Below, piece after piece: positions 1 to 17,665 of a DNA stretch of 43,349 nucleotides (within the stretch, counting starts at the first letter, position 1; each line of letters opens with the position of its first letter). Origin of the DNA: Herpetosiphonaceae bacterium (GTDB lineage Bacteria > Chloroflexota > Chloroflexia > Chloroflexales > Herpetosiphonaceae). The stretch is from positions 1 through 43,349 of the forward strand of contig JABXJS010000193.1 in the NCBI GenBank assembly GCA_013538855.1. Reading direction: 5' to 3'. The position numbers and the translations under genes are program-made. The notes beneath the pieces were generated by a model, which worked only from the letters and a program-made list of their open reading frames with translations, made no database searches and had not been told where the DNA came from.

Positions 1-1
1 C

Positions 2-2185
2 AACCCGGCCGCGCGCTCGATCACCACGCTGCGCGCAACTGGCTCGGAGCCGTATCGCCTGGGCAGCCGCACCATCCTGCTGCCGACGCCGCCAATCGTC
101 ATCACCGACGGCCAGACGCAGACGGTCACGCTGCCGATCAGCGTCGGCCGCGCCTACGCCACCGCCTACAACGACGCGCTGTACATCTTCGTCGAGGAAG
201 GCGCAGGCAGCCATCTCTGGCGCACCGATGGCACCGTCGCCGGCACCACCGATCTGGGCGCGAGCGCGCTGCCAGTCAACACCGCAGCCTACGCGATGTC
301 GCCGGAGCCGTTCCAGCAGCTCGGCAGCAAGGTGCTGGCCTGGAACGACGAGACGCTGTGGGTGCACGATCTGGCGACCAACACGTCCAGCGCCTGGGCC
401 TTTAGCCTGGGCAGTGGCGCATTTTTGACGGGGCAGACGTTTGTGATCGGTGATGTGCTGTACACCATCTCCGTCGGTGCGAGCCAAGTGCTCTGGCGCA
501 GCGACGGCACGCCGGGCGGCACGGCGATGCTGCTGAGCGCGCCGTCGGTGATCGAGGTGCTGGGCCAAGATGCGCAGTCGCTGTATGTGGCGGTCGATGG
601 CAGCGTGCAGCGCACCGATCCGGCCAGCACCAGCATGAAGCAGCTTGGTAGTGTTGCTGGGACAATCCAGCAGTACCAGCAGCTGCCCAGCGGCAGTATC
701 GTGCTGCTGGTTTACAACCTATCGAATAGCCAGGGGACAATCTGGTCCGTCGGTAGCAATGGTTTGGAGCGGCTGTTCGCGCCGCGAACCATCAACATGG
801 GGATGCATTCCAAGAATCTGGGCGCTGTCGTGCTGTTCGAATGGGATGATGGCCAGATTGGCAACGAGCTATGGGTGACCGATGGCACTGTCGCAGGCAC
901 GCAGCCCCTGCTCGAGATGAACCCCGGCCCGGCAGGCGCGTTGTTCGTATTGGTGTCAACTGAACTCCCCACCCGGCAACTGTTTATAGCCTCATCTACG
1001 GCACAGACTGCGCTGTGGAGCACCGACGGCACGCCCGCTGGTACGCACAAGCTCGCCGATGCTGTGACGAGCGAGTTCAATGTGCTTAGTCAGCATCGGG
1101 GCTATATCTACTTCACCATGCGTGATCGGGATGGTGTGCGTGCCCTCTGGGTCAGCGACGGCACGCCCGCTGGCACGCACCGCTTGATCACTGTCGACAT
1201 CGATATTCTGCCATGGCACCGCAGTGTGGACTTTTTCGGCGTCGCTGGCTCTGCCGTCCTGTTCAAGCTTGAGCCTGGGTTCAACCAAGGCTATGAGCTA
1301 TGGGGCACGCAGGCTGGCGCGGCCACGATCAGCCAGCTCGGCGACATCTACCCTGGCCCCGCTGGCTCCGCACCGGAGCTGCTGGCCAGCGCTGCTACGC
1401 ACGTCTTCTTCAGCGCCGACGACGGCACCCACGGCCGCGAGTTGTACGTCACCGACGGCACGCCCGCTGGCACTGTCGCGCTCGGCGACATCTACCCCGG
1501 CCCCCGTGGCTCTGCCGTGACGTTCGCCACGCTGCTTGATGATCAGCTGTTCTTCGCCGCCGACGATGGCGTCCACGGCCTGGAGCCGTGGATCAGCGAC
1601 GGCACGCCCGCTGGCACGTCCATGCTCGCCGACGTGGCCCCCGGCGTTGCTGGCTCCATCGGCGAGCCAGCGCAGCGCTTCGACAGCGATCTCGCCGCCG
1701 CGTTTACGCCGGAGGCCGGCATGCAGCTCTTCACCCTGGTGGGCAGCTATGTGACCTTCACGGCCAACGATCTGGTGCACGGCTTCGAGCTGCACGCCAT
1801 CGCCCTCGACCCTGCGCCGAGCATCAGCGCGCCCGACCATGCCTTTGCGCCGCCGCTGGGCCTGGCCCGGCTGCCGATTGCGCTGCGCAGCGGCGCCCAG
1901 CCGATCTCCGGCGCGGTCACGCTCACGCTCACGCTCGATCCGGCGCTGACCTACGTGGACACCACCGCGAGCGTGACGCCGACGCTCAACGGCACCACGC
2001 TGACCTGGGTGTTCGCGACGCCGCCGGTCGAGCAGCCCTGGCAGGCGCGGGTGCAGCTGCCTGACGGGCCGCTCGGCACCAGCTACGCGCTCCAGTGGTC
2101 GGTGACCACCAGCGCTGGCACGCTGACCAAAGACGTAACCCTGACGAGCGCCGCGCAGGTGTTCCTGCCCAGCGTGCGCCGCTAA
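2..2185 (+). CDS. ELWxxDGT-repeat secreted protein A (5'-partial)
   Basis: The reading frame is open from the window edge, so the N-terminus and signal peptide lie outside; 727 codons are visible. The visible part is a chain of about nine degenerate ELWxxDGTxxGT repeats (forms such as LWRTDGTVAGT, ELWVTDGTVAGT, ELYVTDGTPAGT), each separated by strands that often include DIYPGP. After the repeats comes an Ig/DUF11-like domain (roughly the last 110 residues, starting near APDHAFAPPLGLARLP), and the protein ends in QVFLPSVRR. It is a close paralogue of B (3239-6979): the LPTPPIVITDG segment near the window start matches the middle of B, and the last ~90 residues are almost the same. Function is unknown; repeats of this type occur in large exported proteins, and a beta-propeller or surface-adhesin fold is only an inference. 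Confidence 0.9.
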   Translation, partial: NPAARSITTLRATGSEPYRLGSRTILLPTPPIVITDGQTQTVTLPISVGRAYATAYNDALYIFVEEGAGSHLWRTDGTVAGTTDLGASALPVNTAAYAMSPEPFQQLGSKVLAWNDETLWVHDLATNTSSAWAFSLGSGAFLTGQTFVIGDVLYTISVGASQVLWRSDGTPGGTAMLLSAPSVIEVLGQDAQSLYVAVDGSVQRTDPASTSMKQLGSVAGTIQQYQQLPSGSIVLLVYNLSNSQGTIWSVGSNGLERLFAPRTINMGMHSKNLGAVVLFEWDDGQIGNELWVTDGTVAGTQPLLEMNPGPAGALFVLVSTELPTRQLFIASSTAQTALWSTDGTPAGTHKLADAVTSEFNVLSQHRGYIYFTMRDRDGVRALWVSDGTPAGTHRLITVDIDILPWHRSVDFFGVAGSAVLFKLEPGFNQGYELWGTQAGAATISQLGDIYPGPAGSAPELLASAATHVFFSADDGTHGRELYVTDGTPAGTVALGDIYPGPRGSAVTFATLLDDQLFFAADDGVHGLEPWISDGTPAGTSMLADVAPGVAGSIGEPAQRFDSDLAAAFTPEAGMQLFTLVGSYVTFTANDLVHGFELHAIALDPAPSISAPDHAFAPPLGLARLPIALRSGAQPISGAVTLTLTLDPALTYVDTTASVTPTLNGTTLTWVFATPPVEQPWQARVQLPDGPLGTSYALQWSVTTSAGTLTKDVTLTSAAQVFLPSVRR

Positions 2186-3238: not shown

Positions 3239-6200
3239 TTAGCGCCGCACGCTGGGCAGGAAGACCTGCGCGGCGCTGGTGAGCGTAGCGGCTTGGCTGC
3301 GCGTCTCCGTTGTGGACTGCACGGTCCACAGAAGTGCATAGTGGGTGCCGAGCGGCGCGCTTGGCAGGCGCACGCGCACCTGCCACGGCTGCTCGACCGG
3401 CGGCGTTGCGAACACCCAGGTCAGCGTGGTGCTGTCCACGGTCGGCGTGACGCTCGCGGTGGTGTCCACGTAAGTCAGCGCCGGATCAAGCGTCAGCGTC
3501 ACGGTCATTGGGCCGCGCGGGACTGTGATGCCGGAGGTTTGCAGCGCAAACGGCAGCCGCGCCAAGCCCGCTGGCGGCGCATAGCTCTGTGCAGGCGTGT
3601 CGAAGCTCAGCGTATTGAGCGTGATCGCCCACAGCTCGTCGCCGTGCACAAGGTCGTTGGCGTAGAACACAAGGTAGTCGCCGACCGGCTGGAAGCGCGG
3701 CTGGCGTCCGGCCACCGTGGTCGCATGGAAGCGTGGCGCTGGCTCGCTGACGCCGCTGGCGCTGCCGGGAGCGATGTCGCCCAGCCTGAAGGTGCCCAGC
3801 TCGGTGCCGTCGCTGACCCACGGCTCGGTGCCGTGCTGCTCGTCGCTGGCGGCGAAGACGAGGCGGCCGTCGATCAGGGTGGCTGTGGCGGCCTGGGGCT
3901 TTAGGCCAGCGGGGCCAGGTATGCTGTCCTTGACCATGCGCGTGCCCGCCGGGGTGCCATCGGTGCGCCACAGCTCGCGGCCGTGCACGCCGTCATCGGC
4001 GCTGTAGAGCATGGTCTGCGCGTCGAGGGCAGCGAGCGCCTGCGGGTCGCTGCTGGCGGTGCCGGGCTGGCTGTCGCCAAGCAGGATGAGCTGGCTGAAG
4101 TCGGCGCTGGTGGCCCACAGCTCGCGACCAGTGGCGGCGGTGGCCAGGGCCAGGAAAACGTGGTCGGCGCTGGCGGCGAGCACGGTGGGCTGAGCGGTCA
4201 GCGCCGCAAGCTGGTGGGTGCCTGCGGGCGTGCCATCGGTGCGCCAGAGGGTGCTGCCGCTGGTGTCGGTGGCGCTGAACAGCAGCTGGCTGGTGCTGGT
4301 GACGAGCGCGGTTACGCTGCTGAGGGGGCTGGTGCTCAGCGGCAGCGTGCCGCCGGGGGTGCCGTCGGTGCTCCACAGCTCTAGGCCGCTGGGGCCAGTG
4401 CCAGTGAAGAGCTGGCGACCGTTGGTCTGCGCAACAAAGTGGACGTCGGCATCGGCGGGGCCGGGGTTGATGTCGGTCAACTGCACGGTGCCGGTGAGGG
4501 TGCCGTCGGTGGCCCATAGCTCTCTGCCCGTGTCGGGCGAGTGGAAGGGCACGAGCATGATCTGATCGAGCGCGACGGGCTGTTGCAGGTCTATCCGCGT
4601 CGTCGTCAGGAGGATCTGCATCCCGCTTGGTGTCACGCCGCCCAGCGACAGTCCACCGTTGGAATAATCATTATATCCCTCGAAAATGATGGTGCCATTT
4701 GCGAGATTATAGGTAAACGGCAGCCAGAGGCCGCTGGCGAACTGGCCCAGATAGTGTAAGGTCGTACTGGTGGGATCGGTCAGGTAAAAGATATGCAAAG
4801 GGAAGGATCGGGCATTGAAGTAGTAGGCTGATTGGTCGGCGGTGCTGCCGAGCATGGTGAAAGCCAGTGGACTATTAATGGACGTGCTGGTGAGCACGAC
4901 AGTGTTGGTGAGGGTGCCATCGGTCGCCCACAGGGCGCCAGGAGTAAGCGGTGTGAACTCAGCCGAAGGTGGCTTGGCATAGCTGTAGACATACAGCCAG
5001 TTCTCGGTTGCGAGCGTCTGCGCTAGGTTTGCGGGCGGTGATGATACCATGTACGGGCGCGTGGACATGGTGAAGGTGTCCATATTGATGAGGCTGAGTT
5101 GATAGCTGGTGTTCGCTTGAGAGGGCCACAGCACGAGCGTGTGCTTGTAGAGCGTGGCGTAGTCGTTGGTGCGCTGCCCCGCGCCGACCTGCAAGGAGAG
5201 GGCAAACTCTTTGATGAAGGTGGTGCCGCTGCTGGTGCCGTCGGTGCGCCAGAGCCGCGTGTGCGCGCCATCGATATCGACGAAGATGTAGAGTGCGCCG
5301 TTGTACTCTACGCTCAGGGCGGTGCCCGCGCTGATCGGCAGTGTTTCGGTCTCGGTCTGCCCTGCGGTGATCACCAGCGGCGGGCTGGGAAAGATCAGCG
5401 TGTGCGGACCAAACACCACTGGCTCCAACGTGTCTTCTGTGCGTAGCGCCTGCACCGCGTGCTGCGCTGGATCGATGGTGAGCAGGGTCTGGCTGGCGTT
5501 CGCGTTGAGCTGCATGTACTGGATGCCAGCTGTTGTGGTGATGACGCTGCTGTCCGGATCGTTGTAGGCGCTCAGCGAGCCAGGCGCGGCGCTGCTGATG
5601 TCGGTGATCTGCTGCGTGCCCGCTGCGGTGTTGTCGGTGCGCCAGAGGCTATCGTAGGCGTTGAATACAGTCCCCTGACCCCATAGTGTGAAGCCTGACA
5701 CCGCTCCAGCGCTGTCATTGCGCTCAATCAGCCGTTCTAGCCGCGTGCCATCGTAGCTGTGAAGATAGTATTCATCAGGAACTTGGCCAGGCCGAAAGTA
5801 TGAGCTGATGTAGAGGTGATCTGCTGTTGGGGTGAGGCTGATGACACTGTTGATGAGAATAGTGGGTTGAGCATTGGCCTGTGGCTCTAGCACAGCCATG
5901 TACGTTTGAGTTGTCATTAAAAGAACCGCCAGCTTGCCGTTGATCGCATTCAGCTCAACAACTTTCTCATATGGGAATGCGTCAACGGCCTCATAGGCGG
6001 TGACGGTGCTGGCGCTGCCAGGATCGTAGAGCCGGATCACACGCTGGTTGGGGCTGATGTAGGCGAGCTGGCCGTTGATCGGCGTCAGCCCGCTCCCGCA
6101 CTCGGCGGCGATTATCTGCGTGCCGGCGGGCGTGCCGTCCGAGCGCCATAGCCCACACGAGCCATCGGCGCGCGTGGCGCGGAAGTACAGCGTGCTGTCA

Positions 6201-6979
6201 GCTGCGCTGACCTCCTCTACCTGCACATCGGCCTGCACCAGCGTGGTGTTGGCCGTGCTGTGATCGGTGCGCCACAGGCCCCAGCTCGTCCCATCGAAGG
6301 CCGTGAAGTACAGCCAGCCGTTAACCACGATGAACTGCTGCGGGTTGCTGCCCGCCGGGCCGGGGTTGATGTCCTTGACGCGCACGGTGTCGCTGCTCGC
6401 GCCATTGGAGCGCCACAGCTCGGCCCCGCCCGCCGCATCGACGCCCACGAATAGCAGGCGCGCATTCAGCTTGACCAGATCGTCGCCAGCGACGATCGTA
6501 TCCACATAATCGTAGGCCAGCTCAAAGACGTGCGTGCCCGCGGCGGTGCCATCGGTGCGCCAGAGCTGGCGCGGGCCGCCGACGGCATCAAAGGCCCAGA
6601 ACCAGGCTTCGCCGTCGATGGCGTGGAAGAAGCGCGGATCGCTGCTGGCGACACCGGGCAGCAGGTCGGCCAGCAACTGCGTGGTGCTGGCGGTTCCATC
6701 GGTGACCCACAGCTCACGGCCGCTGGCGGGCTGGAGCGCGGTGAAGACGAGGCGCGTGTCAGAGAGCGGCGTGAAGTCGGCCAGAGCCGTATTGACTTCG
6801 CTGGCGGGCACTGGCTCGCTGGCGTAGTCATCGATTAAGAACGGGTGGGTGCTGCTGGCGGCGGCGGACGGCGGGGCTGATCGCGTAGGCTGCTCGGCAG
6901 CGACAGGCGCGTGTGCTGGCATGGCGAGCAGACCGATGAGCACAGTCAGCAGGATGCATGCGAAACGATATGGGCGCAT
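3239..6979 (-). CDS. ELWxxDGT-repeat secreted protein B
   Basis: 1246 residues. The start at 6979 is chosen because AAGGAGAG lies 7 bases upstream and the product begins with a clean signal peptide (MRPYRFACILLTVLIGLLAM, cleavage near AHA); the frame is open further upstream without support. After a short linker (FLIDDY) come about 14 ELWxxDGT-type repeats. Repeats near residue 270 carry a Cys pair (GSCGLWRSDGT and AECG) that is also present in C and D and may form a disulfide. A C-terminal Ig/DUF11-like domain (LDPALTYVDTTASVTPT) is followed by the tail QVFLPSVRR. The N-terminal ~280 residues are close to D, while the middle differs strongly. It is likely exported and cell-surface or matrix associated; ligand and role are unknown. 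It has its own promoter-like motif at 7034-7061. Confidence 0.92.
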   Translation of the reverse strand: MRPYRFACILLTVLIGLLAMPAHAPVAAEQPTRSAPPSAAASSTHPFLIDDYASEPVPASEVNTALADFTPLSDTRLVFTALQPASGRELWVTDGTASTTQLLADLLPGVASSDPRFFHAIDGEAWFWAFDAVGGPRQLWRTDGTAAGTHVFELAYDYVDTIVAGDDLVKLNARLLFVGVDAAGGAELWRSNGASSDTVRVKDINPGPAGSNPQQFIVVNGWLYFTAFDGTSWGLWRTDHSTANTTLVQADVQVEEVSAADSTLYFRATRADGSCGLWRSDGTPAGTQIIAAECGSGLTPINGQLAYISPNQRVIRLYDPGSASTVTAYEAVDAFPYEKVVELNAINGKLAVLLMTTQTYMAVLEPQANAQPTILINSVISLTPTADHLYISSYFRPGQVPDEYYLHSYDGTRLERLIERNDSAGAVSGFTLWGQGTVFNAYDSLWRTDNTAAGTQQITDISSAAPGSLSAYNDPDSSVITTTAGIQYMQLNANASQTLLTIDPAQHAVQALRTEDTLEPVVFGPHTLIFPSPPLVITAGQTETETLPISAGTALSVEYNGALYIFVDIDGAHTRLWRTDGTSSGTTFIKEFALSLQVGAGQRTNDYATLYKHTLVLWPSQANTSYQLSLINMDTFTMSTRPYMVSSPPANLAQTLATENWLYVYSYAKPPSAEFTPLTPGALWATDGTLTNTVVLTSTSINSPLAFTMLGSTADQSAYYFNARSFPLHIFYLTDPTSTTLHYLGQFASGLWLPFTYNLANGTIIFEGYNDYSNGGLSLGGVTPSGMQILLTTTRIDLQQPVALDQIMLVPFHSPDTGRELWATDGTLTGTVQLTDINPGPADADVHFVAQTNGRQLFTGTGPSGLELWSTDGTPGGTLPLSTSPLSSVTALVTSTSQLLFSATDTSGSTLWRTDGTPAGTHQLAALTAQPTVLAASADHVFLALATAATGRELWATSADFSQLILLGDSQPGTASSDPQALAALDAQTMLYSADDGVHGRELWRTDGTPAGTRMVKDSIPGPAGLKPQAATATLIDGRLVFAASDEQHGTEPWVSDGTELGTFRLGDIAPGSASGVSEPAPRFHATTVAGRQPRFQPVGDYLVFYANDLVHGDELWAITLNTLSFDTPAQSYAPPAGLARLPFALQTSGITVPRGPMTVTLTLDPALTYVDTTASVTPTVDSTTLTWVFATPPVEQPWQVRVRLPSAPLGTHYALLWTVQSTTETRSQAATLTSAAQVFLPSVRR

Positions 6980-7316
6980 AATCGCTCTCCTTATGGTGTG
7001 ATGGTGATCTGATGGTGTCGCGTTCATAATCCATGACTCGCCGTGCCGCCGAATCGTTACACAGCTGCTGCTGCCACGTGCGCTGTACCCTTGCACAGCG
7101 TGACGGCACGCTTCAGCGTGGTTGAGCGTCCGCTGGTTGGGCTGGCAGCTGGTGGTGTCGCCCCACGCCGCAGTGCGACGGCAAAGCCGTGGACGGGGCA
7201 AAAAGCGCCGTGGTTATGCGCTGCTCGTGCAGGCGGCCTGCGCGGCACCGCGGGCGCAGCAGCATGGCCGCGCCCTGTAGAGCGGACTGCCTGGTCGTGC
7301 TTCGATTACGATCCGC
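6980..7316. other. Intergenic region between B and C
   Basis: Contains the putative promoter of B (7034-7061) and two copies of the dispersed motif: 7111-7140 (CAGCGTGGTTGAGCGTCCG) and 7199-7222 (CAAAAAGCGCCGTGGTTATG). No ORF with a ribosome-binding site or recognisable product is seen. Confidence 0.55.
7034..7061 (-). promoter_or_regulatory. Conserved promoter-like motif upstream of B
   Basis: On the minus strand TGTAAC (7056-7061), a 15-base spacer, then CGAGTCA (7034-7040). The inner edge is 55 bases from the start codon of B. The same element, with the same spacer, lies upstream of C and D. The layout resembles an ECF-sigma promoter (AAC and GTC cores), but the sigma factor is unknown. 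Confidence 0.55.
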
Positions 7317-10300
7317 CTAGCGCTGCACCAGCGGGACGTGCACCTGATACGCGCTGACCAGCTCGATCTGATGGATAGCTGTGCTGGTCATCTGCGGGCT
7401 GCTGAGCGTCGCCTGGTAGCGGCTGCCGACTGTTCCGCTCGGCAGCTGGAGCTCAACGCTCCAGCTGAAGCGCGCCGCCGCCTGCGCCGGGATGCGCCAG
7501 CTAATCTGCTGTCCGGCAATGCTTGGGGTGAGGCCGCTGCTGTCGCCAAGGTAGGTCACGCCAGGATCGAGCGTCAGCGTCACGCTGATTGGCTGGGCTG
7601 TAAGCTGCTGGTTCTCTAGCGCCAGCGGCAGCACCGTGCGCTCATGCACCAGCACGCGCGCTGGTGCCGCAAGCATGCCCAGCGCCGTCAGCGGCAGATG
7701 CTGCACTGCCGTGCCATGCACAAGGTCGTCGGCGGCCCAAAACAGCTCGCTACCGTTGTCGGTGAAGCTTGGCCATCCGGCCTGCTGTGGATCATCGCCG
7801 CGGTTGATCGGCGCAACGCTCCAGTTGTCGGTTGAACCATAGGAGCCATACGCCGACCATAGCCGCGGGTTGGTCGTGTAGCGATCCTCGAGCCGATACA
7901 GCGAGCTGGCGGGGCCTGGCGCGGTGTCAACAAGCAGCGTGGCCTGCGCGCTGGTGGCGAACCATGGCTCGTAGCCGTGCCGACCGTCGTTGGCGGCCAG
8001 CACGACGCCGCCTGGCACCGCATACAGCGCAAATGGCACAGTGCGCTGCGGAAATATCCACGCCGCATTAAAGGTCGGCTGGGGGTTCACGCCGTCAGCT
8101 GGGCCAGGGTTGATGTCGGCCACCAGATGCGTGTGCGCCGGATCACCGTCGGTGGCCCACAGCTCATGGCCTGTCGCCGCGTCAAAGCCCACGAAGAAGA
8201 GCGTGGCGCCTGACACGCGCCACGAGCCGCCGGGAGAGGCCGCCAACACCGCATCATGAACTCGTTCGGTGACGCTGCCGTTGGAGCGCCACTGCTGCGT
8301 GCCGCTGGCGGTGTCGACGCGGAAGTACAGCCACTCTTGAAACGCCACCAGGTCGTGGATGGAGCTGGCTGGCGGCAGGGCCTCGCTGAAGGTGTGCACA
8401 ACCTCGGTGCCCGGTGGGGTGCCATTGGTGCGCCAGAGCTGCTTGACGCCAGCAAAATAGACATAGTCTTCAACCCGTGTGAGATCGTGAAAGACCGGCG
8501 CGAGGAACGGTGTCGATGTCAGGTAGAGGGTTTGCTGCCAGCCAATTGCCTGGCTCCATAGTTTGTAGCTGACACCGTTGTAGTCGTGGCGAACGGTGTA
8601 GATGATGCGGTCGTCCAGTGCTACCGCCTCGGCGAAGTCATACGAGAGCGTATCGGCTGGCGGCAAGATCTGCGTGCCCGCCGCTGTGCCGTCAGTCTCC
8701 ACTGTATGGCCGCCGTCATCGTTCTTGTAGCCCATCCAGAAGGTGCTAGCGTTGGCGGTGTCGCGCTGGTTGGCGGTCGGCCACGTTGTCAGCGTCAGAT
8801 TGTTCTCCGCTGAGCCATCGCTGCTGAACAGGATCATATTAAAGCCGCTGCTGCATGCGCCAACCAGCCGCGCACTCTGGTTGGTCGGCGTGATCCGGCG
8901 CATGGTTGGGCACCAGGAGCTGCTGCTGTAGTTGCTGGTGCGCGTATCAAGCTGTAGGACGGTTGTGCTGCGGCTGGCGCTCGTCGCCAGCACCGCGTTG
9001 GGCAGCGCGGCGATGCTCAGCAGCGTTGTCGCTGGTGCGCTGCCGCCGATGTCTTTGATGCGATAGGTGCCTGCCTCCGTGCCGTCGCTGAGCCATGGCT
9101 CGCTGTTGACATTGCAGCACCGGTATCCAGCCCGCACATCGCCCTGAAAGATGACGTGATCGCCCCACGCCGCTAGCTCACTCGCGCTGATTCCGGTCTC
9201 ATAGGTGGTCACAGGGTCAAGGCTGCTGCCGTCATACTTGTAGAGCCGGAAGTCCGACCAGTGCGCTCCCCAGTCTAGCTCAGCATAGATGTGCTGATCT
9301 GTGCCGATAAACAGCGTTTCATTGGCCGCGACGATGGTGCTGATCGTCGTCCCATAGCCGTACATACCGCCTTCCATCAGCGGAACTATGCCGTCGCCGA
9401 TGGTGTAGCGCAGCAGGCGCGAGTCGACGCGGAAGGGGCTGCCGTCGGCTTCAAGCCAGCCGATAAATCTGTGCTGGACAAGGTAGACCGAGCTAGCGCC
9501 CAGCGCCCCGCGCCCGGCCAGCATCTGCACAATGCTGCCTGTGTCGCTGTAGACCGCCTGCGCGCTCAGCGCTGTTCCGTCGCTAACGTACAGCGTGTGC
9601 TGGTCGGCACTGGTAAAGGCCAGCGCGCCGCTGACGTCGGTGAGCATGCGTCCACACGCTGTGGCCACTTGCACCGTCCCGGCCTGGCTGCCATCGCTGC
9701 GCCAGACGCCACAGTTGCCCGCTGCATCGCTGCCGCTGAAGTACACGCCCTGCGCGCTGGCGATCATCGCGGTAATCTGGACGCCAGGGTAGATCTGCGT
9801 GGTGTTGGCGCTGGTGCGGTCGGTGCGCCAGAGGCCCCACTGCTGGCCATCGAAGGCGCTGAAGTACAGCCAGCCGCCCACGCCGGTGAAGTGCTGCGGA
9901 TCGCTGCTGCCGGGGCCAGGGTTGATGTCCTTCACGCGCACGGTGTCGGCTGCGCCGTTGGAGCGCCATAGCTCCGCGCCGCCAGCGGCATCCACGCCCG
10001 CAAACAGCAGCCGTGCGTTGACCTTGGCCAGCTCGCCTGACCGAATCTCGCTGACTTTTGCATAGGCCACGCTCAGCGGCATGGTGCCGCTGCTGGTGCC
10101 ATCAGTGCGCCACAGCTGGCGCGGCCCGTCGTCGCCGTCGTAGGCCCAGAACCAGACCTCGCCATCGATGACGGTGAGGTCAATTGGGTCGCTGCTGGCC
10201 GGGCCAGGGTAAAGATCGGCCAGCAGGAGTGTGCCCGTCAGTGTGCCGTCGGTGGTCCATAGCTCGCGCCCCGTCTCCGCAGTGACGGCGGTGAAGAGCA

Positions 10301-10511
10301 CCTGTGTGGCGCTCAGCGGCGTAAAGTCCTGCGGTGCCGAGCCACTGTTTTGCAGCTGTGCGTCGCTTGGGTCGTACAGCAGTGTGTCGTCCGCGAAAGC
10401 TGGCGCGCTGGCTTTCGCTGCCTTCGGTGTCGCTTGTGTTTGGCTGACGCTCGACAGCAGGCCAAGCAGCAGCATGCCGAGTATCAAAAGCAGCATAGAT
10501 CGATTGTTCAT
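7317..10511 (-). CDS. ELWxxDGT-repeat secreted protein C
   Basis: 1064 residues. The ATG at 10511 has GAGGAGG 8 bases upstream and opens a signal peptide (MNNRSMLLLILGMLLLGLLS). The mature part starts with the family N-terminal block (DFTPLS, then GRELWTTDGTLTGT) and contains ELWxxDGT repeats, including the Cys-bearing one (NCGVWRSDGS then ACG). It ends with an Ig/DUF11-like domain (LTLDPGVTYLGDSS) and the tail QVHVPLVQR. C is the most diverged paralogue: the central segments and the last domain share only the pattern with A and B. The C-terminal domain order is as in A and B, unlike D. Exported; role unknown. Confidence 0.92.
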   Translation of the reverse strand: MNNRSMLLLILGMLLLGLLSSVSQTQATPKAAKASAPAFADDTLLYDPSDAQLQNSGSAPQDFTPLSATQVLFTAVTAETGRELWTTDGTLTGTLLLADLYPGPASSDPIDLTVIDGEVWFWAYDGDDGPRQLWRTDGTSSGTMPLSVAYAKVSEIRSGELAKVNARLLFAGVDAAGGAELWRSNGAADTVRVKDINPGPGSSDPQHFTGVGGWLYFSAFDGQQWGLWRTDRTSANTTQIYPGVQITAMIASAQGVYFSGSDAAGNCGVWRSDGSQAGTVQVATACGRMLTDVSGALAFTSADQHTLYVSDGTALSAQAVYSDTGSIVQMLAGRGALGASSVYLVQHRFIGWLEADGSPFRVDSRLLRYTIGDGIVPLMEGGMYGYGTTISTIVAANETLFIGTDQHIYAELDWGAHWSDFRLYKYDGSSLDPVTTYETGISASELAAWGDHVIFQGDVRAGYRCCNVNSEPWLSDGTEAGTYRIKDIGGSAPATTLLSIAALPNAVLATSASRSTTVLQLDTRTSNYSSSSWCPTMRRITPTNQSARLVGACSSGFNMILFSSDGSAENNLTLTTWPTANQRDTANASTFWMGYKNDDGGHTVETDGTAAGTQILPPADTLSYDFAEAVALDDRIIYTVRHDYNGVSYKLWSQAIGWQQTLYLTSTPFLAPVFHDLTRVEDYVYFAGVKQLWRTNGTPPGTEVVHTFSEALPPASSIHDLVAFQEWLYFRVDTASGTQQWRSNGSVTERVHDAVLAASPGGSWRVSGATLFFVGFDAATGHELWATDGDPAHTHLVADINPGPADGVNPQPTFNAAWIFPQRTVPFALYAVPGGVVLAANDGRHGYEPWFATSAQATLLVDTAPGPASSLYRLEDRYTTNPRLWSAYGSYGSTDNWSVAPINRGDDPQQAGWPSFTDNGSELFWAADDLVHGTAVQHLPLTALGMLAAPARVLVHERTVLPLALENQQLTAQPISVTLTLDPGVTYLGDSSGLTPSIAGQQISWRIPAQAAARFSWSVELQLPSGTVGSRYQATLSSPQMTSTAIHQIELVSAYQVHVPLVQR

Positions 10512-10565
10512 GGCTTATGCCTCCTCGGTAGCATGGGTCACGCTCTGATATGCTTCTATACATGC

Positions 10566-10593
10566 TGACTCACCTGGGCGTCATTAAGTTACA
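10566..10593 (-). promoter_or_regulatory. Conserved promoter-like motif upstream of C
   Basis: On the minus strand TGTAAC (10588-10593), a 15-base spacer and TGAGTCA (10566-10572). The inner edge is 55 bases from the start codon of C, the same distance as in B. The spacer differs from those of B and D except for its final GG, so the two boxes are conserved rather than the whole block. Confidence 0.55.
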
Positions 10594-10620
10594 GCCTGCA
10601 AGCGAAACACGCCGCAAGCG

Positions 10621-10650
10621 CCTGCGCCCGTTGCGCCATGTGGGCGCAGG
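10621..10650 (-). terminator. Hairpin downstream of protein D
   Basis: A perfect 9-bp stem (CCTGCGCCC at 10621-10629, GGGCGCAGG at 10642-10650) with a 12-base loop lies 20 bases after the stop of D and before the promoter motif of C. There is no T tract. Confidence 0.45.
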
Positions 10651-10669
10651 CATGCCGAATGCGCTAGCG

Positions 10670-13600
10670 CTAGCGCTTCAGCAGCGGCAGGAATACTTGC
10701 GCCTGCGCCTCCACGCTGGCCCAGGGCAGCGCCCACAGCTCGTAGCCGTGCACGAGATCGTTGGCGTAGAACACGAGATAGTCGCCGACGCGCTCGAAGC
10801 TCGGCTGGCGCTCAGGCACATCGACCGTGAGCAAGCGCTGCGCTGGCTCGTTCACTCCGCTGGCGATGCCCGGCGCGATGTCCGCGAGCATTCGCGTGCC
10901 CAAGCGCGTGCCGTCGCTGACCCACGGCTCCACGCCATGCCGCCCGTCGCTGGCACCGAAGAGCAGCCGCCCGTCGATCACGACCGCCGAGTCGGCCTGC
11001 AGCAGCATGTCTGCTGGGCCTGGTGTGAGCTCGGTGACCATCTGCGTGCCGACGGCGGTGCCATCGGAGCGCCACAGCTCGCGCCCGTGCACGCCGTCGT
11101 CGGCGCTGTAGAGCAGCGTCTGATCGGGCAGGCTGCCGAGGGCCTGTGGATCGCTGCCATCCGGGCCAGGCATGCTGTCGGCGAGCAGGGTCAGGCCGTC
11201 GCGGCTGGGCGTGGTGGCCCACAGCTCGCGGCCGGTGGCGCTGGTGCTCAGCGCGATCAGGTAGCTGTCGTTGAGTATGCCAAGCACGCTGGGCTGATCC
11301 GTGCAGGTGCTGAGCCGATGGGTGCCCGCTGCAGTGCCATCGCTGATCCACAGCCCATGGCCCGCCGCTGTATCGGCGCTAAACAAGAGCGTGTCGCTGG
11401 TCTGGGAGATCACGGTCACATTGCTGATTGGAGCGGTGACCAGCGCCGCCGTGCCGCCGGGCGTGCCGTCGGTGCTCCAGAGCTGTGCGCCGCTGGTGCT
11501 GCGTCCTGTGAAAACCTCGCGGTCCTGCACTTGCCCCACAAATCTGATCTGTGAGTTGTATGGGCCAGGGTTGATGTCGGTCAACTGCACGGTGCCGCTG
11601 ATCGTGCCGTCGCTGGCCCACAGCTCATCGCCACTAGCGCTCGTGCTACTGCGCAGCAGCAGGCGCTCGCCAAGCAGCGCGGGCGCGTAGTAGTCGATGA
11701 TGTAATTAGCGGGGAAGGTCTGGAGCGTTTGCATGCTGCTCGCCGACAGCGCGGAGACGCTGATCTCATTCGTCGTACTGTCATCCGTGATGATCATCAG
11801 GGTGTTGTTAGGCAGCATTTGGTGATAGCGTAGGCGGTCGTCGTTTGTGCCTAGCAGAGTGAGCGTTGATGTGGTTGGATCGGTGCGGTAGAACCGCGTG
11901 GTGTGGTCGGAGAGCGGACCAATGCTCAGGTACAGCGCATCCTGGTCTGCGGTTGCGCCGAGCATGGTTATCTGATCGACGTTGTCATAGAGCAGACGTG
12001 TGTTCTGGGGTGTGCCATCAGTGGCCCAGAGACCAGCGTTGTAGGGGGCCTGCATAGCGCTGTCGATATACAGCATCGTGTTAGTCTGAAAGATGGCCTT
12101 GGTCTGCGTCAGCGTGAAGGGTAAGCTCTGAGCTGTTGCGGTCAGCGTATCGAGGTTGATAAAGATAGCGGTTTTCGGGTACCACAGCACCAGCGTGTTG
12201 CCGAGCAGTGCAATATCATCAGCGCTGTGTGTATCTGATCCGATTGGCAGGGTAAAGTTAAACTGCTTGAGCATGCTCGTGCCGCTGAGCGTGCCATCGG
12301 TGCGCCAGAGATAGCCGCGCCGATCACCAACCTGGAGAGCGTAGACCGCATTGTTGTAGATAAACGGGCGCTGTGCGCCAGCGCCAATCGGCAGCATTGT
12401 TGCTCTGTTCCGGCCCTCGGTGAGCACAATCGGCGGGCTGGGAAACAGCAGAGTGTGTGGCCCAAACTGCGTCTTGTTCCAGTGACTCTCATTGCTCAGC
12501 AGGGCGATGGATGGGTCGCTTGGATTAATCGCAATTGTCTCGTGCTGCTGGGTGTGCGCATCGTACAGGTCCATATATTTAGCACCGCCGATGTTGGCTA
12601 GCTCCTGGCTGTCTGGGCTGTTGTAGAACTGCATGCTCGCCGGTGCAGGGGTGTTAATCGCTTGCAGCTGGCGGGCTGTGGTCGTTCCGGCAGCTAAAAT
12701 CCAGGGATTGCCAGAAAATGCGTCGCTGAAGACAAGCTGGTTGCCCCATGGGGTGATCTGCTTGGCTGGTGCGCGCGCTATCTCTGTCCACGTCTGTCCA
12801 TCATACGTCTGGAGCGAGGAGTCGCGGCCGTAGAAGTCGATCCAGGTGGAGCTAGCGTAGACGAGGTCTGCGGTTGCGGTCACTTCTACGGTATCGTACG
12901 CGCTGCCAACCTGGATCGGCTCAGTATTTGGCTGTGGTGCGACTCGGTAGAGTCCATCCGTTGTGAAAAATACGAGCCGCCCGTGCAGGGTTACGATGAA
13001 GCGCAGGCTGCCGAGTACGTCGCACACTTTGGCGCTGCTGCCGTTGCTGATGTTGTAGAGCCAGATTTCACTCCGCGCTACGTTGAGAAAGACTAGGTTG
13101 TCGTTTACGATGGTTAGCTCAGATCCGCACATATCGCCTAGGTGCTGCGTGCCCGTCGGCGTGCCATCCGAGCGCCACAGCCCACACGTGCCGTCGGCGC
13201 GCGTGGCCCGGAAGTAGAGCGCTGGCCCATCCACCACCATCTCCTCAACCTGCACATCGGCCTGCACCAGTGTGGTGTTGGCCGCGTTGCGATCCGTGCG
13301 CCACAAGCCCCAGCTCGTCCCGTCGAAGGCCGTGAAGTACAGCCAGCCGCCTGCCACTGTAAACAGGTGCGGATCGCTGCCCGCCGGGCCGGGGTTGATG
13401 TCCTTGACGCGCACGGTGTCGCTGCTCGTGCCGTTGGAGCGCCACAGCTCGGCCCCGCCTGCGGCATCGACGCCCACGAACAGCAGGCGCGCGTTCAGCT
13501 TGACCAGGTCGTCGCCCTCGACAATGGCGCTGACGTAGTCGTAGGCCAGGTCAAAGACGTGCGTGCCCGCCGCCGTGCCATCGGTGCGCCAGAGCTTGCG

Positions 13601-14002
13601 CGGGCCGCCGATAGCATCGAAGGCCCAGAACCAGGCTTCGCCGTCGATGGCGTGCAGGTGCTGTGGATCGCCGCTGGCCACGCCGGGCACGAGATCGGCC
13701 AGCAGCTGCGTGGTGGCGCTGGAGCCATCGGTGACCCACAGCTCGCGCCCGCTGGCTGAGTTCAGCGCGCTAAAGACAAGCCGACTGTCCGAGAGAGGCG
13801 TGTAGTCGGCGGCCTGCGCACTGGTGTTGTACGTTTCAACGTGCTGATTGTAGTCGTCGATCAGAAACGCGCCGCCGTTAGTGTGCGCTGCTGTGGGCGC
13901 GTGTTCAGCGGCTGGCGCTGGCTGGCTGTGGCTGCCAAACACGATCATCAGCATCAGGGCCAGTAGACCGCGACCAATGCTCCTACTCTGTATCCAGGCC
14001 AT
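10670..14002 (-). CDS. ELWxxDGT-repeat secreted protein D
   Basis: 1110 residues. Start 14002 is preferred because AAAGGAG lies 7 bases upstream and a signal peptide follows (GRGLLALMLMIVFGSHS, cleavage near PAAEHA); an upstream in-frame ATG at 14092 gives a non-signal extension. The first ~280 mature residues are nearly the same as B (FLIDDY, ELWVTDG, GVDAAGGAELWRSNGTSSDT, TCGLWRSDGT), then the sequence diverges, and similarity returns at FGPHTLLFPSPPI and in the last repeats (HGRELWRSDGT, GVEPWVSDGT). It lacks the Ig/DUF11-like domain that closes A, B and C: after HGYELWALP the chain goes directly into the tail QVFLPLLKR. Exported; role unknown. Confidence 0.92.
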   Translation of the reverse strand: MAWIQSRSIGRGLLALMLMIVFGSHSQPAPAAEHAPTAAHTNGGAFLIDDYNQHVETYNTSAQAADYTPLSDSRLVFSALNSASGRELWVTDGSSATTQLLADLVPGVASGDPQHLHAIDGEAWFWAFDAIGGPRKLWRTDGTAAGTHVFDLAYDYVSAIVEGDDLVKLNARLLFVGVDAAGGAELWRSNGTSSDTVRVKDINPGPAGSDPHLFTVAGGWLYFTAFDGTSWGLWRTDRNAANTTLVQADVQVEEMVVDGPALYFRATRADGTCGLWRSDGTPTGTQHLGDMCGSELTIVNDNLVFLNVARSEIWLYNISNGSSAKVCDVLGSLRFIVTLHGRLVFFTTDGLYRVAPQPNTEPIQVGSAYDTVEVTATADLVYASSTWIDFYGRDSSLQTYDGQTWTEIARAPAKQITPWGNQLVFSDAFSGNPWILAAGTTTARQLQAINTPAPASMQFYNSPDSQELANIGGAKYMDLYDAHTQQHETIAINPSDPSIALLSNESHWNKTQFGPHTLLFPSPPIVLTEGRNRATMLPIGAGAQRPFIYNNAVYALQVGDRRGYLWRTDGTLSGTSMLKQFNFTLPIGSDTHSADDIALLGNTLVLWYPKTAIFINLDTLTATAQSLPFTLTQTKAIFQTNTMLYIDSAMQAPYNAGLWATDGTPQNTRLLYDNVDQITMLGATADQDALYLSIGPLSDHTTRFYRTDPTTSTLTLLGTNDDRLRYHQMLPNNTLMIITDDSTTNEISVSALSASSMQTLQTFPANYIIDYYAPALLGERLLLRSSTSASGDELWASDGTISGTVQLTDINPGPYNSQIRFVGQVQDREVFTGRSTSGAQLWSTDGTPGGTAALVTAPISNVTVISQTSDTLLFSADTAAGHGLWISDGTAAGTHRLSTCTDQPSVLGILNDSYLIALSTSATGRELWATTPSRDGLTLLADSMPGPDGSDPQALGSLPDQTLLYSADDGVHGRELWRSDGTAVGTQMVTELTPGPADMLLQADSAVVIDGRLLFGASDGRHGVEPWVSDGTRLGTRMLADIAPGIASGVNEPAQRLLTVDVPERQPSFERVGDYLVFYANDLVHGYELWALPWASVEAQAQVFLPLLKR

Positions 14003-14413
14003 GCGGGCGCTCCTTTCGCTGTGTGGGGTTTTCTGTTGTCTATCAGGTTGGCGTGCAGGTGATGCTGCTGGCGTACAGTGTGCGGCGCTCAACGCTCGTG
14101 CCAGCTGGAGAAGTCGCAGCGCGAGCCGTATGGAACGTCACGTGGTCCCCAGACAAGCCCGAACCGCGCCAGCGTGCACAGCGTTCTGCATGCTGTTGTG
14201 TACAGATCTGCTGGTTCGCGAACCGTGTTGGCGGGCTGCATAGTCTAGTGCGCATGGGGAGGAGCAGGCTGGAGCGTGTGCGAGATGTTTTGTAGTCCGT
14301 CTGCTATGTATGACTCGCCTAGCCCGCCAATCGTTACACCCGCGCCGAAATTCTTTTAATTGGCGCGCTCCGCGAGGCTGGATAGCGCATACAGGTGCAT
14401 GTATGCTGAAAAA
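14003..14413. other. Long leader region upstream of D
   Basis: Non-coding region between the start of D and the 138-bp repeat array. It contains the promoter-like motif (14311-14338). No ORF with a ribosome-binding site was found between that motif and the start codon of D, leaving an unusually long leader of about 300 bases. Confidence 0.45.
14311..14338 (-). promoter_or_regulatory. Conserved promoter-like motif upstream of D
   Basis: On the minus strand TGTAAC (14333-14338), a 15-base spacer and CGAGTCA (14311-14317). It nearly matches the B element over its full length. The distance to the start of D is 309 bases, against 55 in B and C. Confidence 0.5.
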
Positions 14414-15711: not shown

Positions 15712-16989
15712 CTAGCCCGCCTTGGGCAGGCTCAGGACGACGGTGGTGCCCGCGCCCTCGCGGCTGTCGATGCTCATGCTGCCGTGCTGCGACTCGATCA
15801 GCGCCTTGGCGATCGCTAGCCCGAGGCCCGCGCCAGAGCTGCCGCTGCCGCGCGAGCTATCGACGCGGTAGAAGCGCTCGAAGATGTGCTTGAGGTGCTG
15901 GGCTGGAATGCCCTGGCCCGTGTCGCGGATGCTGATCTGCACACGCTGGCCTTTTGGCTCGGCGGCGAGCGTGATGCTGCCGCCAGCGGGCGTGTGGCGC
16001 AGCGCGTTGTCAAGCGCGATCAGGATGACCTGGCGCAGCCGCGTCTGGTCGGCCAGCACCGCGCCGTCTGCGCTAGCGACAGCGAGCCGCACCTGCTTCT
16101 GCTGCACCAGCACTTGCATCTGGCGCTGCACATCGTGGAGCAGCGTGGCGCTGTCCAGCGGCTTGAGGTCAAACTGAATGCGCTGGGCATCGAGCCGCCC
16201 AAGCAGCAGCAGGTCCTCGACCAGCTGGTTCATGTGGTCGCTCTCGGCGATCACGTCTTGCAGCAGCTCGCGGTTGGGGTCGGCGGCGTCCATGCCGCGC
16301 AGCGCCACCTCGGTGGAGGCGCGCAGCAGCGTCAGGGGCGCGCGCAGCTCGTGGCTGGCGTTGGCGATGAAGGCTTGCTGGCGCTCCCAGGCGAGCTGGG
16401 CTGGGCGCAGCGAGCGCCCGGCGAGCCACCAGCTGGCCCAGCCCAGCAGCACGGCCATGCCCACGCTCAGCGCCAGCAGGCCGCTGACCAGCTGGCGCAG
16501 CACCGCATCCTGATCGCTCAGCACCCGGCCTACCTGGAGCACCGCCGGGCCGTCGCTGCGCGTCAGGCGCTCGGAGAGCAGGCGCACGCGCACGCTGTTG
16601 GAGAGCGTGACCGTGCGCCAGACGCGCTCGCCGCGCAGCGCCTCCAGCGCCGCCTCCTGATCGGGCGGCAGCGGTGGCCGCCACTCATTCGGGTCGTAGA
16701 GCGGGCTGCCGGTGCTGTCAAGTGGGTACACAAACGTGGCCGAGAGCGTCGTGGCCGTGCGCGAGCGCTCATCCTGGCTGACGTTCGGCGCGAACAAGCG
16801 CAGCCCTGGCGAGAGCGGCGCGTCGAGGTAGGTGAACTCAAGCGCCATGCGCTCAAGCAGCGCCCGATCAGTGGCGGCGGAGAAGTGGTTGTCGATCAGC
16901 CAGTAGCTGCCGCCGCCGATGCACACCAGCAGCAGCAGCGCGGCGCTGATGTAGACCAGGGTCAAGCGCCAGCGCAGGCCGTTAAACAT
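15712..16989 (-). CDS. Sensor histidine kinase, two-component system
   Basis: 425 residues. The start at 16989 overlaps the end of the regulator gene by 8 bases, so the two are probably translationally coupled; the open frame further upstream lies inside the regulator. Membrane helices at about 11-32 and 168-190 flank an extracytoplasmic sensor region of ~135 residues. The cytoplasmic part has the H box with phospho-acceptor His213 (ASHELRAPLT), N box Asn328 (IALDNALRHTP), G1 (DTGQGI, Asp356) and G2 (GAGLGLAIA), so all catalytic motifs are intact. A canonical HAMP is not obvious between helix 2 and the H box. It should phosphorylate the regulator at 16982-17665; the signal is unknown. Confidence 0.93.
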   Translation of the reverse strand: MFNGLRWRLTLVYISAALLLLVCIGGGSYWLIDNHFSAATDRALLERMALEFTYLDAPLSPGLRLFAPNVSQDERSRTATTLSATFVYPLDSTGSPLYDPNEWRPPLPPDQEAALEALRGERVWRTVTLSNSVRVRLLSERLTRSDGPAVLQVGRVLSDQDAVLRQLVSGLLALSVGMAVLLGWASWWLAGRSLRPAQLAWERQQAFIANASHELRAPLTLLRASTEVALRGMDAADPNRELLQDVIAESDHMNQLVEDLLLLGRLDAQRIQFDLKPLDSATLLHDVQRQMQVLVQQKQVRLAVASADGAVLADQTRLRQVILIALDNALRHTPAGGSITLAAEPKGQRVQISIRDTGQGIPAQHLKHIFERFYRVDSSRGSGSSGAGLGLAIAKALIESQHGSMSIDSREGAGTTVVLSLPKAG

Positions 16990-17665
16990 CGCTGACCTCA
17001 AGGCGGTAGCCGATGCCGCGCACCGTGCGGATGGGGTCGGGCTGACCAGGCTGGTCGAGCTTGCGCCGCACATAGGAGATGTACACATCCACCAGCCCTG
17101 GCTGCACCTCGCGCTCATATGACCAGACATAATCTAGCAGCTGTGCTCGCGAGAGCGTCTGGCCAGCGTTGCGCATCAGGCACTCCAGCAGCGACCACTC
17201 GGTGGCTGTGAGGTCAAGCGCCTGCGCCCCGCGCCTGGCCGTATGCGCGCGCAGGTCGAGCACAATATCGCCGCAGCGCAGCTCAGAGGCATCGTTGCCG
17301 ATGGCGTTGAAGCGGCGGCCCAAGGCGCGCACGCGCGCGGACAGCTCGTCGAATGAGAATGGCTTGGCCAGGTAGTCGTCGGCTCCGCTGTCGAGGCCCG
17401 CCACACGGTCCTCAACTTGCCCGCGCGCCGTCAGCATCAGCACAGCGAGCGGCAGCCGCCGCTGGCGAATCGCGCGACAGATGGCCGGGCCATCGCGCCC
17501 AGGCAGCATCCAATCGACGATCGCCACATCGTAGATGCCGCGCAGCGCTAGCTCTAGGCCCGTGTCGCCATCGTCGGCCACATCGACGTTGTGGTACTCA
17601 TCGGTCAGCACCCGCTCGATCAGCCGCGCGAGCTTGCGATCATCCTCAATCAACAAAATCTTCAT
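16982..17665 (-). CDS. OmpR/PhoB-family response regulator
   Basis: 227 residues. The receiver domain has the acidic pair Asp8/Asp9, phospho-acceptor Asp51 (VDWMLPG), Thr79 and Lys101 (KPFSFDEL). A C-terminal winged helix follows (LTATEWSLLECL, VDVYISYVRRKL, IRTVRGIGYRLE), typical of OmpR/PhoB DNA binders. The start at 17665 has GGAGG 7 bases upstream. It is the first gene of the regulator-kinase pair and is divergent from the PepSY/ApbE/ferric-reductase operon. A 7-4-7 direct repeat between the two transcripts suggests it controls its own operon and probably its neighbour. Confidence 0.95.
   Translation of the reverse strand: MKILLIEDDRKLARLIERVLTDEYHNVDVADDGDTGLELALRGIYDVAIVDWMLPGRDGPAICRAIRQRRLPLAVLMLTARGQVEDRVAGLDSGADDYLAKPFSFDELSARVRALGRRFNAIGNDASELRCGDIVLDLRAHTARRGAQALDLTATEWSLLECLMRNAGQTLSRAQLLDYVWSYEREVQPGLVDVYISYVRRKLDQPGQPDPIRTVRGIGYRLEVSDV

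Follow-up and report, generated by a model that had tools for sequence, protein, structure and literature searches.

The 6.3-Mb genome of a Herpetosiphonaceae bacterium contains a two-box element, TGTAAYGNTT-N12-GAGTCAT, that probably serves as the core promoter of a small regulon under a single alternative sigma factor, most probably an ECF one. What was computed directly comprises the motif with its fixed spacing, the closed set of sites that it forms genome-wide, the placement of these sites before genes for exported proteins, and a purine pair downstream of them.

A two-box element before genes for exported proteins

Three copies of the element lie in the window, by which we mean the whole stretch of 43,349 nucleotides that was analysed, where they precede three of its four genes for ELWxxDGT-repeat proteins (B, C, and D). 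The relevant features are as follows.

1..2185, plus strand: gene A, ELWxxDGT gene truncated by the contig end, 3' part only (TIGR04534, 238 bits)
3239..6979, minus strand: gene B, exported ELWxxDGT-repeat protein of 1246 aa, C-terminus VFLPSVRR (TIGR04534 in 13 stretches, E 4e-125, 408 bits)
7033..7061, minus strand: putative promoter element of gene B, TGTAAC-GATTCGGCGGCACGGC-GAGTCAT, 0 mismatches to the extended logo, predicted +1 at ~7024-7025
7317..10511, minus strand: gene C, exported ELWxxDGT-repeat protein of 1064 aa, C-terminus VHVPLVQR (TIGR04534 E 6e-81, 266 bits)
10565..10593, minus strand: putative promoter element of gene C, TGTAAC-TTAATGACGCCCAGGT-GAGTCAG, boxes only, predicted +1 at ~10556-10557
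10670..14002, minus strand: gene D, exported ELWxxDGT-repeat protein of 1110 aa, C-terminus VFLPLLKR (TIGR04534 E 2e-121, 396 bits)
14310..14338, minus strand: putative promoter element of gene D, TGTAAC-GATTGGCGGGCTAGGC-GAGTCAT, predicted +1 at ~14301-14302 with a leader of ~300 nt

A preliminary description of this DNA had reported TGTAAC-N15-YGAGTCA at 7034-7061, 10566-10593, and 14311-14338 on the minus strand, and all three copies are indeed exact, with 0 mismatches and a spacer of 15. The distance of 55 nt that it gave from the inner edge of the element to the start codon was likewise recovered for genes B (ATG at 6979) and C (ATG at 10511), and for gene D the inner edge lies ~310 nt from the ATG at 14002. 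The ~300 nt between the D element and this ATG (window positions 14002-14310) have no clear reading frame, and D might have a long leader or a second promoter there. No fourth copy of the strict pattern was found in the window, even with up to 2 mismatches allowed, and its 3 matches in the whole genome are all inside the window, with 0.1 expected under a dinucleotide model built from 184 kb of the same genome, which was also used for the other expected count given below.

The region upstream of a fourth paralogue, located on contig C58, suggested that the pattern be relaxed to TGTAAY-N16-GAGTC, which has 11 matches in the genome (1.4 expected and 3 in a reversed control). The outcome named beforehand as refuting, a random scatter of hits over the genome, is not what was observed: each of the 11 sites has a gene for an exported protein downstream of it in the same orientation, signal peptides and lipoprotein signals being judged by eye from the N-termini of the products. 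The targets are listed below.

Window: ELWxxDGT paralogues B, C, and D, one site each
Contig C58: ELWxxDGT paralogue C58-2 (TIGR04534, 366 bits), and a divergent ELWxxDGT gene bearing two tandem sites
Contig C192: two related exported proteins of 470 and 486 aa
Contig C156: an exported protein of 943 aa with a weak beta-propeller match
Contig C153: a Pro/Thr-repeat lipoprotein, and another exported protein, truncated at the contig end

Genes A, B, C, D, and C58-2 all exceed the curated TIGR04534 cut-off of 65 bits that was used for family membership. The lipoprotein on C153 (L074:1399-2282) has 294 aa, mostly Pro/Thr/Trp-rich repeats (TATPVWP-like), and its gene adjoins genes for an ornithine/aspartate carbamoyltransferase-family protein and an argininosuccinate-lyase-like protein. 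Further matches on C256, C31, C205, and C88, which have other spacing or mismatches, were set aside; the one on C256, which lies inside a coding frame, is the single extra site gained when one mismatch is allowed.

The sites on C58 precede further ELWxxDGT genes, and one of these is probably the missing part of gene A. The divergent C58 gene reaches the contig end (L060:414-1, minus strand) and is preceded by tandem elements at L060:681 and L060:600, also on the minus strand. When aligned to the paralogue C58-1, the window fragment of gene A covers residues 510-1228 (51% identity) and the C58 end fragment covers residues 22-132 (61%), and these non-overlapping parts therefore probably belong to one gene. 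If they do, the C58 fragment and the window fragment being its 5' and 3' parts, the two tandem elements are probably the promoter region of gene A, and C58 probably adjoins the window in a single ELWxxDGT cluster, ~1.1 kb of which is missing between the two.

Considering that a pattern of two short boxes was picked after looking at the sequence, and that three matches are also reached by 2 of 100 shuffled versions of the window with 2 mismatches tolerated, the three window sites could be thought a post hoc pattern arising by chance. This explanation is hardly credible, because the 8 sites outside the window are independent of that choice (against 1.4 expected) and all of them precede exported-protein genes, and because the mismatch spectrum has a clean gap. 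Scored with the extended logo, the genome contains 4, 6, 0, and 16 matches with 0, 1, 2, and 3 mismatches, respectively, and 16 is the level of the control. The 11 sites that supplied the logo were later scored with it; what makes the test informative is that no match has two mismatches, a gap that separates 10 sites (0-1 mismatches) from the background (3 mismatches), so that the set can be regarded as closed. The sample consists of 11 sites from one genome, and some pairs (B and C58-2) possibly have a common origin and may not be independent.

Anatomy of the element and its reading as a promoter

The logo built from the 11 sites is TGTAAYG-N-TT-N12-GAGTCAT with fixed spacing. Box 1, TGTAAY, is present in all of them (the final base is C in 4 and T in 7), and conservation extends beyond it to G at +6 (9/11), T at +8 (8/11), and T at +9 (9/11). 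When spacers of 12-20 between TGTAAY and GAGTC were scanned, 9 matches fell at 16 and 2 elsewhere, with enrichment at 16 only. The consensus first proposed, TGTAAC-N15-YGAGTCA, is real in its strict form, but the base given as the first of box 2 can be any of C, T, A, and G, box 1 may end in C or T, and the conserved G+6, T+8, T+9, and the T after GAGTCA had been missed. The observation that only the boxes are kept upstream of gene C holds, since the extension beyond them is absent from that element, which is the most degenerate of the 11 (score 19 versus 26-33 for the others).

The copies might also be remnants of duplicated genes or of a mobile element that became dispersed, devoid of promoter function, and it is true that B, C, D, A, and C58-2 are paralogous and that B and C58-2 are alike around the element. 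However, 5 of the 11 sites precede genes that are not homologous to the ELWxxDGT paralogues, no longer repeat was found around the sites, and the flanks outside the boxes are at most 43% identical among sites while the boxes are invariant, implying that only the boxes have been kept. We therefore regard such an origin as very improbable. The same distribution bears on the earlier proposal that the element co-regulates the paralogues, which is not supported as it was worded, being both too narrow, in view of the unrelated targets, and too broad, as the motif is absent from the ELWxxDGT paralogues C58-1, C16, and C161.

The geometry of the sites gives good support to the ECF-like promoter reading made in the preliminary description, which holds up in substance. 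In addition to the fixed spacing and the TGTAAY box followed by a T-rich stretch, alignment columns 36-37, which follow the C of GAGTC by 10-11 nt, hold purines in 11/11 sites, a result reached by 0 of 20,000 row-shift permutations. With +1 at these columns, the boxes would be located at about -36/-31 and -14/-8, which is the usual geometry of sigma-dependent promoters. No TATAAT-like sigma-70 -10 was found at a constant position across the 11 sites, and a scan for sigma-70 promoters upstream of B, C, and D found none. On C153, the ATG follows GAGTC by just 36-37 nt, which leaves scant space for a further -10.

A different possibility is that the element is a binding site for an activator or repressor acting on a sigma-70 promoter, for instance the OmpR/PhoB-type response regulator encoded beside gene D (15712-17665). 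The first base of TGTAAC and the first base of GAGTC are 22 bp apart, which corresponds to two helical turns, and genes for a histidine kinase and an OmpR-type regulator adjoin D. Yet the boxes are neither repeats nor a palindrome, the orientation of the sites is always the same, conserved purines at a constant 10-11 nt are not expected of an operator, and the sigma-70 -10 that it requires is missing both at a constant distance and in the promoter scan upstream of B, C, and D. An operator is unlikely on these grounds, although less so than the other alternatives, and we infer that the element is a promoter rather than an operator and that its sigma factor is of the ECF type.

As a core promoter, the element would comprise a -35 TGTAAYGNTT and a -10 GAGTCAT with 16 nt between TGTAAY and GAGTC. 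Release of the sigma factor would let RNA polymerase initiate at the purine pair that follows the C of GAGTC by 10-11 nt and transcribe single genes, namely A, B, C, D, C58-2, two on C192, one on C156, and two on C153, and the output would presumably be a change in cell surface or secreted proteins.

Candidate sigma factors and comparison with known promoters

Some observations count against an ECF promoter: no sigma gene has the motif nearby, the -10 is unfamiliar, and the D site is ~310 nt from its ATG. With regard to the first, the preliminary description had asked whether matches precede an ECF sigma gene, and none do; among the 22 Sigma70_r2 loci of the genome, none has the motif within ~1.5 kb. 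Many ECF sigma factors drive their own gene, but not every one is autoregulated, and since autoregulation is common rather than obligatory, its apparent absence here is compatible with the ECF class.

When 17 ECF-like proteins were compared with 20 ECF loci from the sister genus, those on C231, C275, C110, C67, C65, and C72 had no close counterpart among the matches listed. On C231 (L026), the ECF-type sigma gene is followed by a gene for a MucB/RseB-like domain and is divergent from the gene of an exported G8/CEMIP-like protein. The adjoining MucB/RseB-like gene and the lack of a close match among the sister-genus ECFs compared are weak grounds on which this sigma factor might be put forward as a candidate for the cognate one.

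Several described ECF promoters resemble the element in part. Bacillus subtilis SigX recognizes a -35 of TGTAAC and a -10 of CGWC (PMC12153292). The -35 hexamer is common to both, but the -10 GAGTCAT has A where SigX has C, and the hosts belong to different phyla. With a spacer of 17 in SigX promoters, AGTC of the element would align where CGWC falls. ECF16/EcfF promoters, tGTAACc-N16-CGAA and GTAAC(g/a)-N14-15-(c/t)CG(t/a) (PMC3420878), share a GTAAC -35, a short fixed spacer, and a small regulon with the present system, whereas their -10 is different and EcfF controls its own gene, the motif having been found at no sigma gene here. RpoE-type promoters of Escherichia coli, GGAACTT / TCAAA (PMC12153292), have in common with the element an AAC core, a T-rich stretch after it, and a short -10 with TCA, but the -35 here is TGTAAY and not GGAAC, and box sequence and regulon content differ. 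Compared with the -10s of these ECF promoters (CGTC, CGAA, and TCAAA), GAGTCAT shares GTC or TCA with some and is identical to none, so that the cognate sigma factor would be useful for testing how -10 specificity evolves.

Lineage distribution and the exported proteins

TGTAAY-N16-GAGTCAT has 8 matches in this genome and no more than 1 in any of 81 further genomes from the order, and the extended logo was found in 0 of 399 other Chloroflexota genomes searched. The upstream regions of ELWxxDGT genes in other genomes, read by eye, revealed no common element. The regulon in its present form seems to be restricted to this lineage. Among the prolyl-tRNA synthetases found, those closest to that of this organism (70-73% identity) belong to an uncultured Roseiflexus bin and to 'Chloroflexi bacterium AL-N1'. 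A broader proposal, to which we would give even chances, is that a lineage-restricted sigma factor with the new specificity TGTAAYGNTT-N12-GAGTCAT runs a closed set of ~10 genes that code solely for exported, largely repeat-rich proteins of unknown function, as a surface-coat switch that brings paralogues and unrelated genes together.

No ECF promoter or regulon for this part of Chloroflexota and no shared promoter for the ELWxxDGT family were found in the literature searched. By their profile scores, A-D and C58-2 belong to the uncharacterised family TIGR04534, on which nothing was found in PMC. If the promoter reading is correct, these proteins gain co-regulated partners, suggesting one inducible surface or secretion programme, and given the closed set of 11 sites and the clear gap to the background, each site offers a direct test.

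Short C-terminal tails of the VFLPAVRR, VFLPLLKR, YLPMLLN, or YLPLTAKP type are common to many exported proteins of this organism, including B, C, D, A, C58-1, C58-2, the C156 and C192 proteins, and an RCC1-like protein (L016:2075). Nothing directly relevant on C-terminal sorting signals in Chloroflexi was found in PMC. Homologues in other genomes have similar ends (LYLPLAQQ, FLPLVIR, and YLPLVWR), and the tail may be a C-terminal sorting or anchoring signal.
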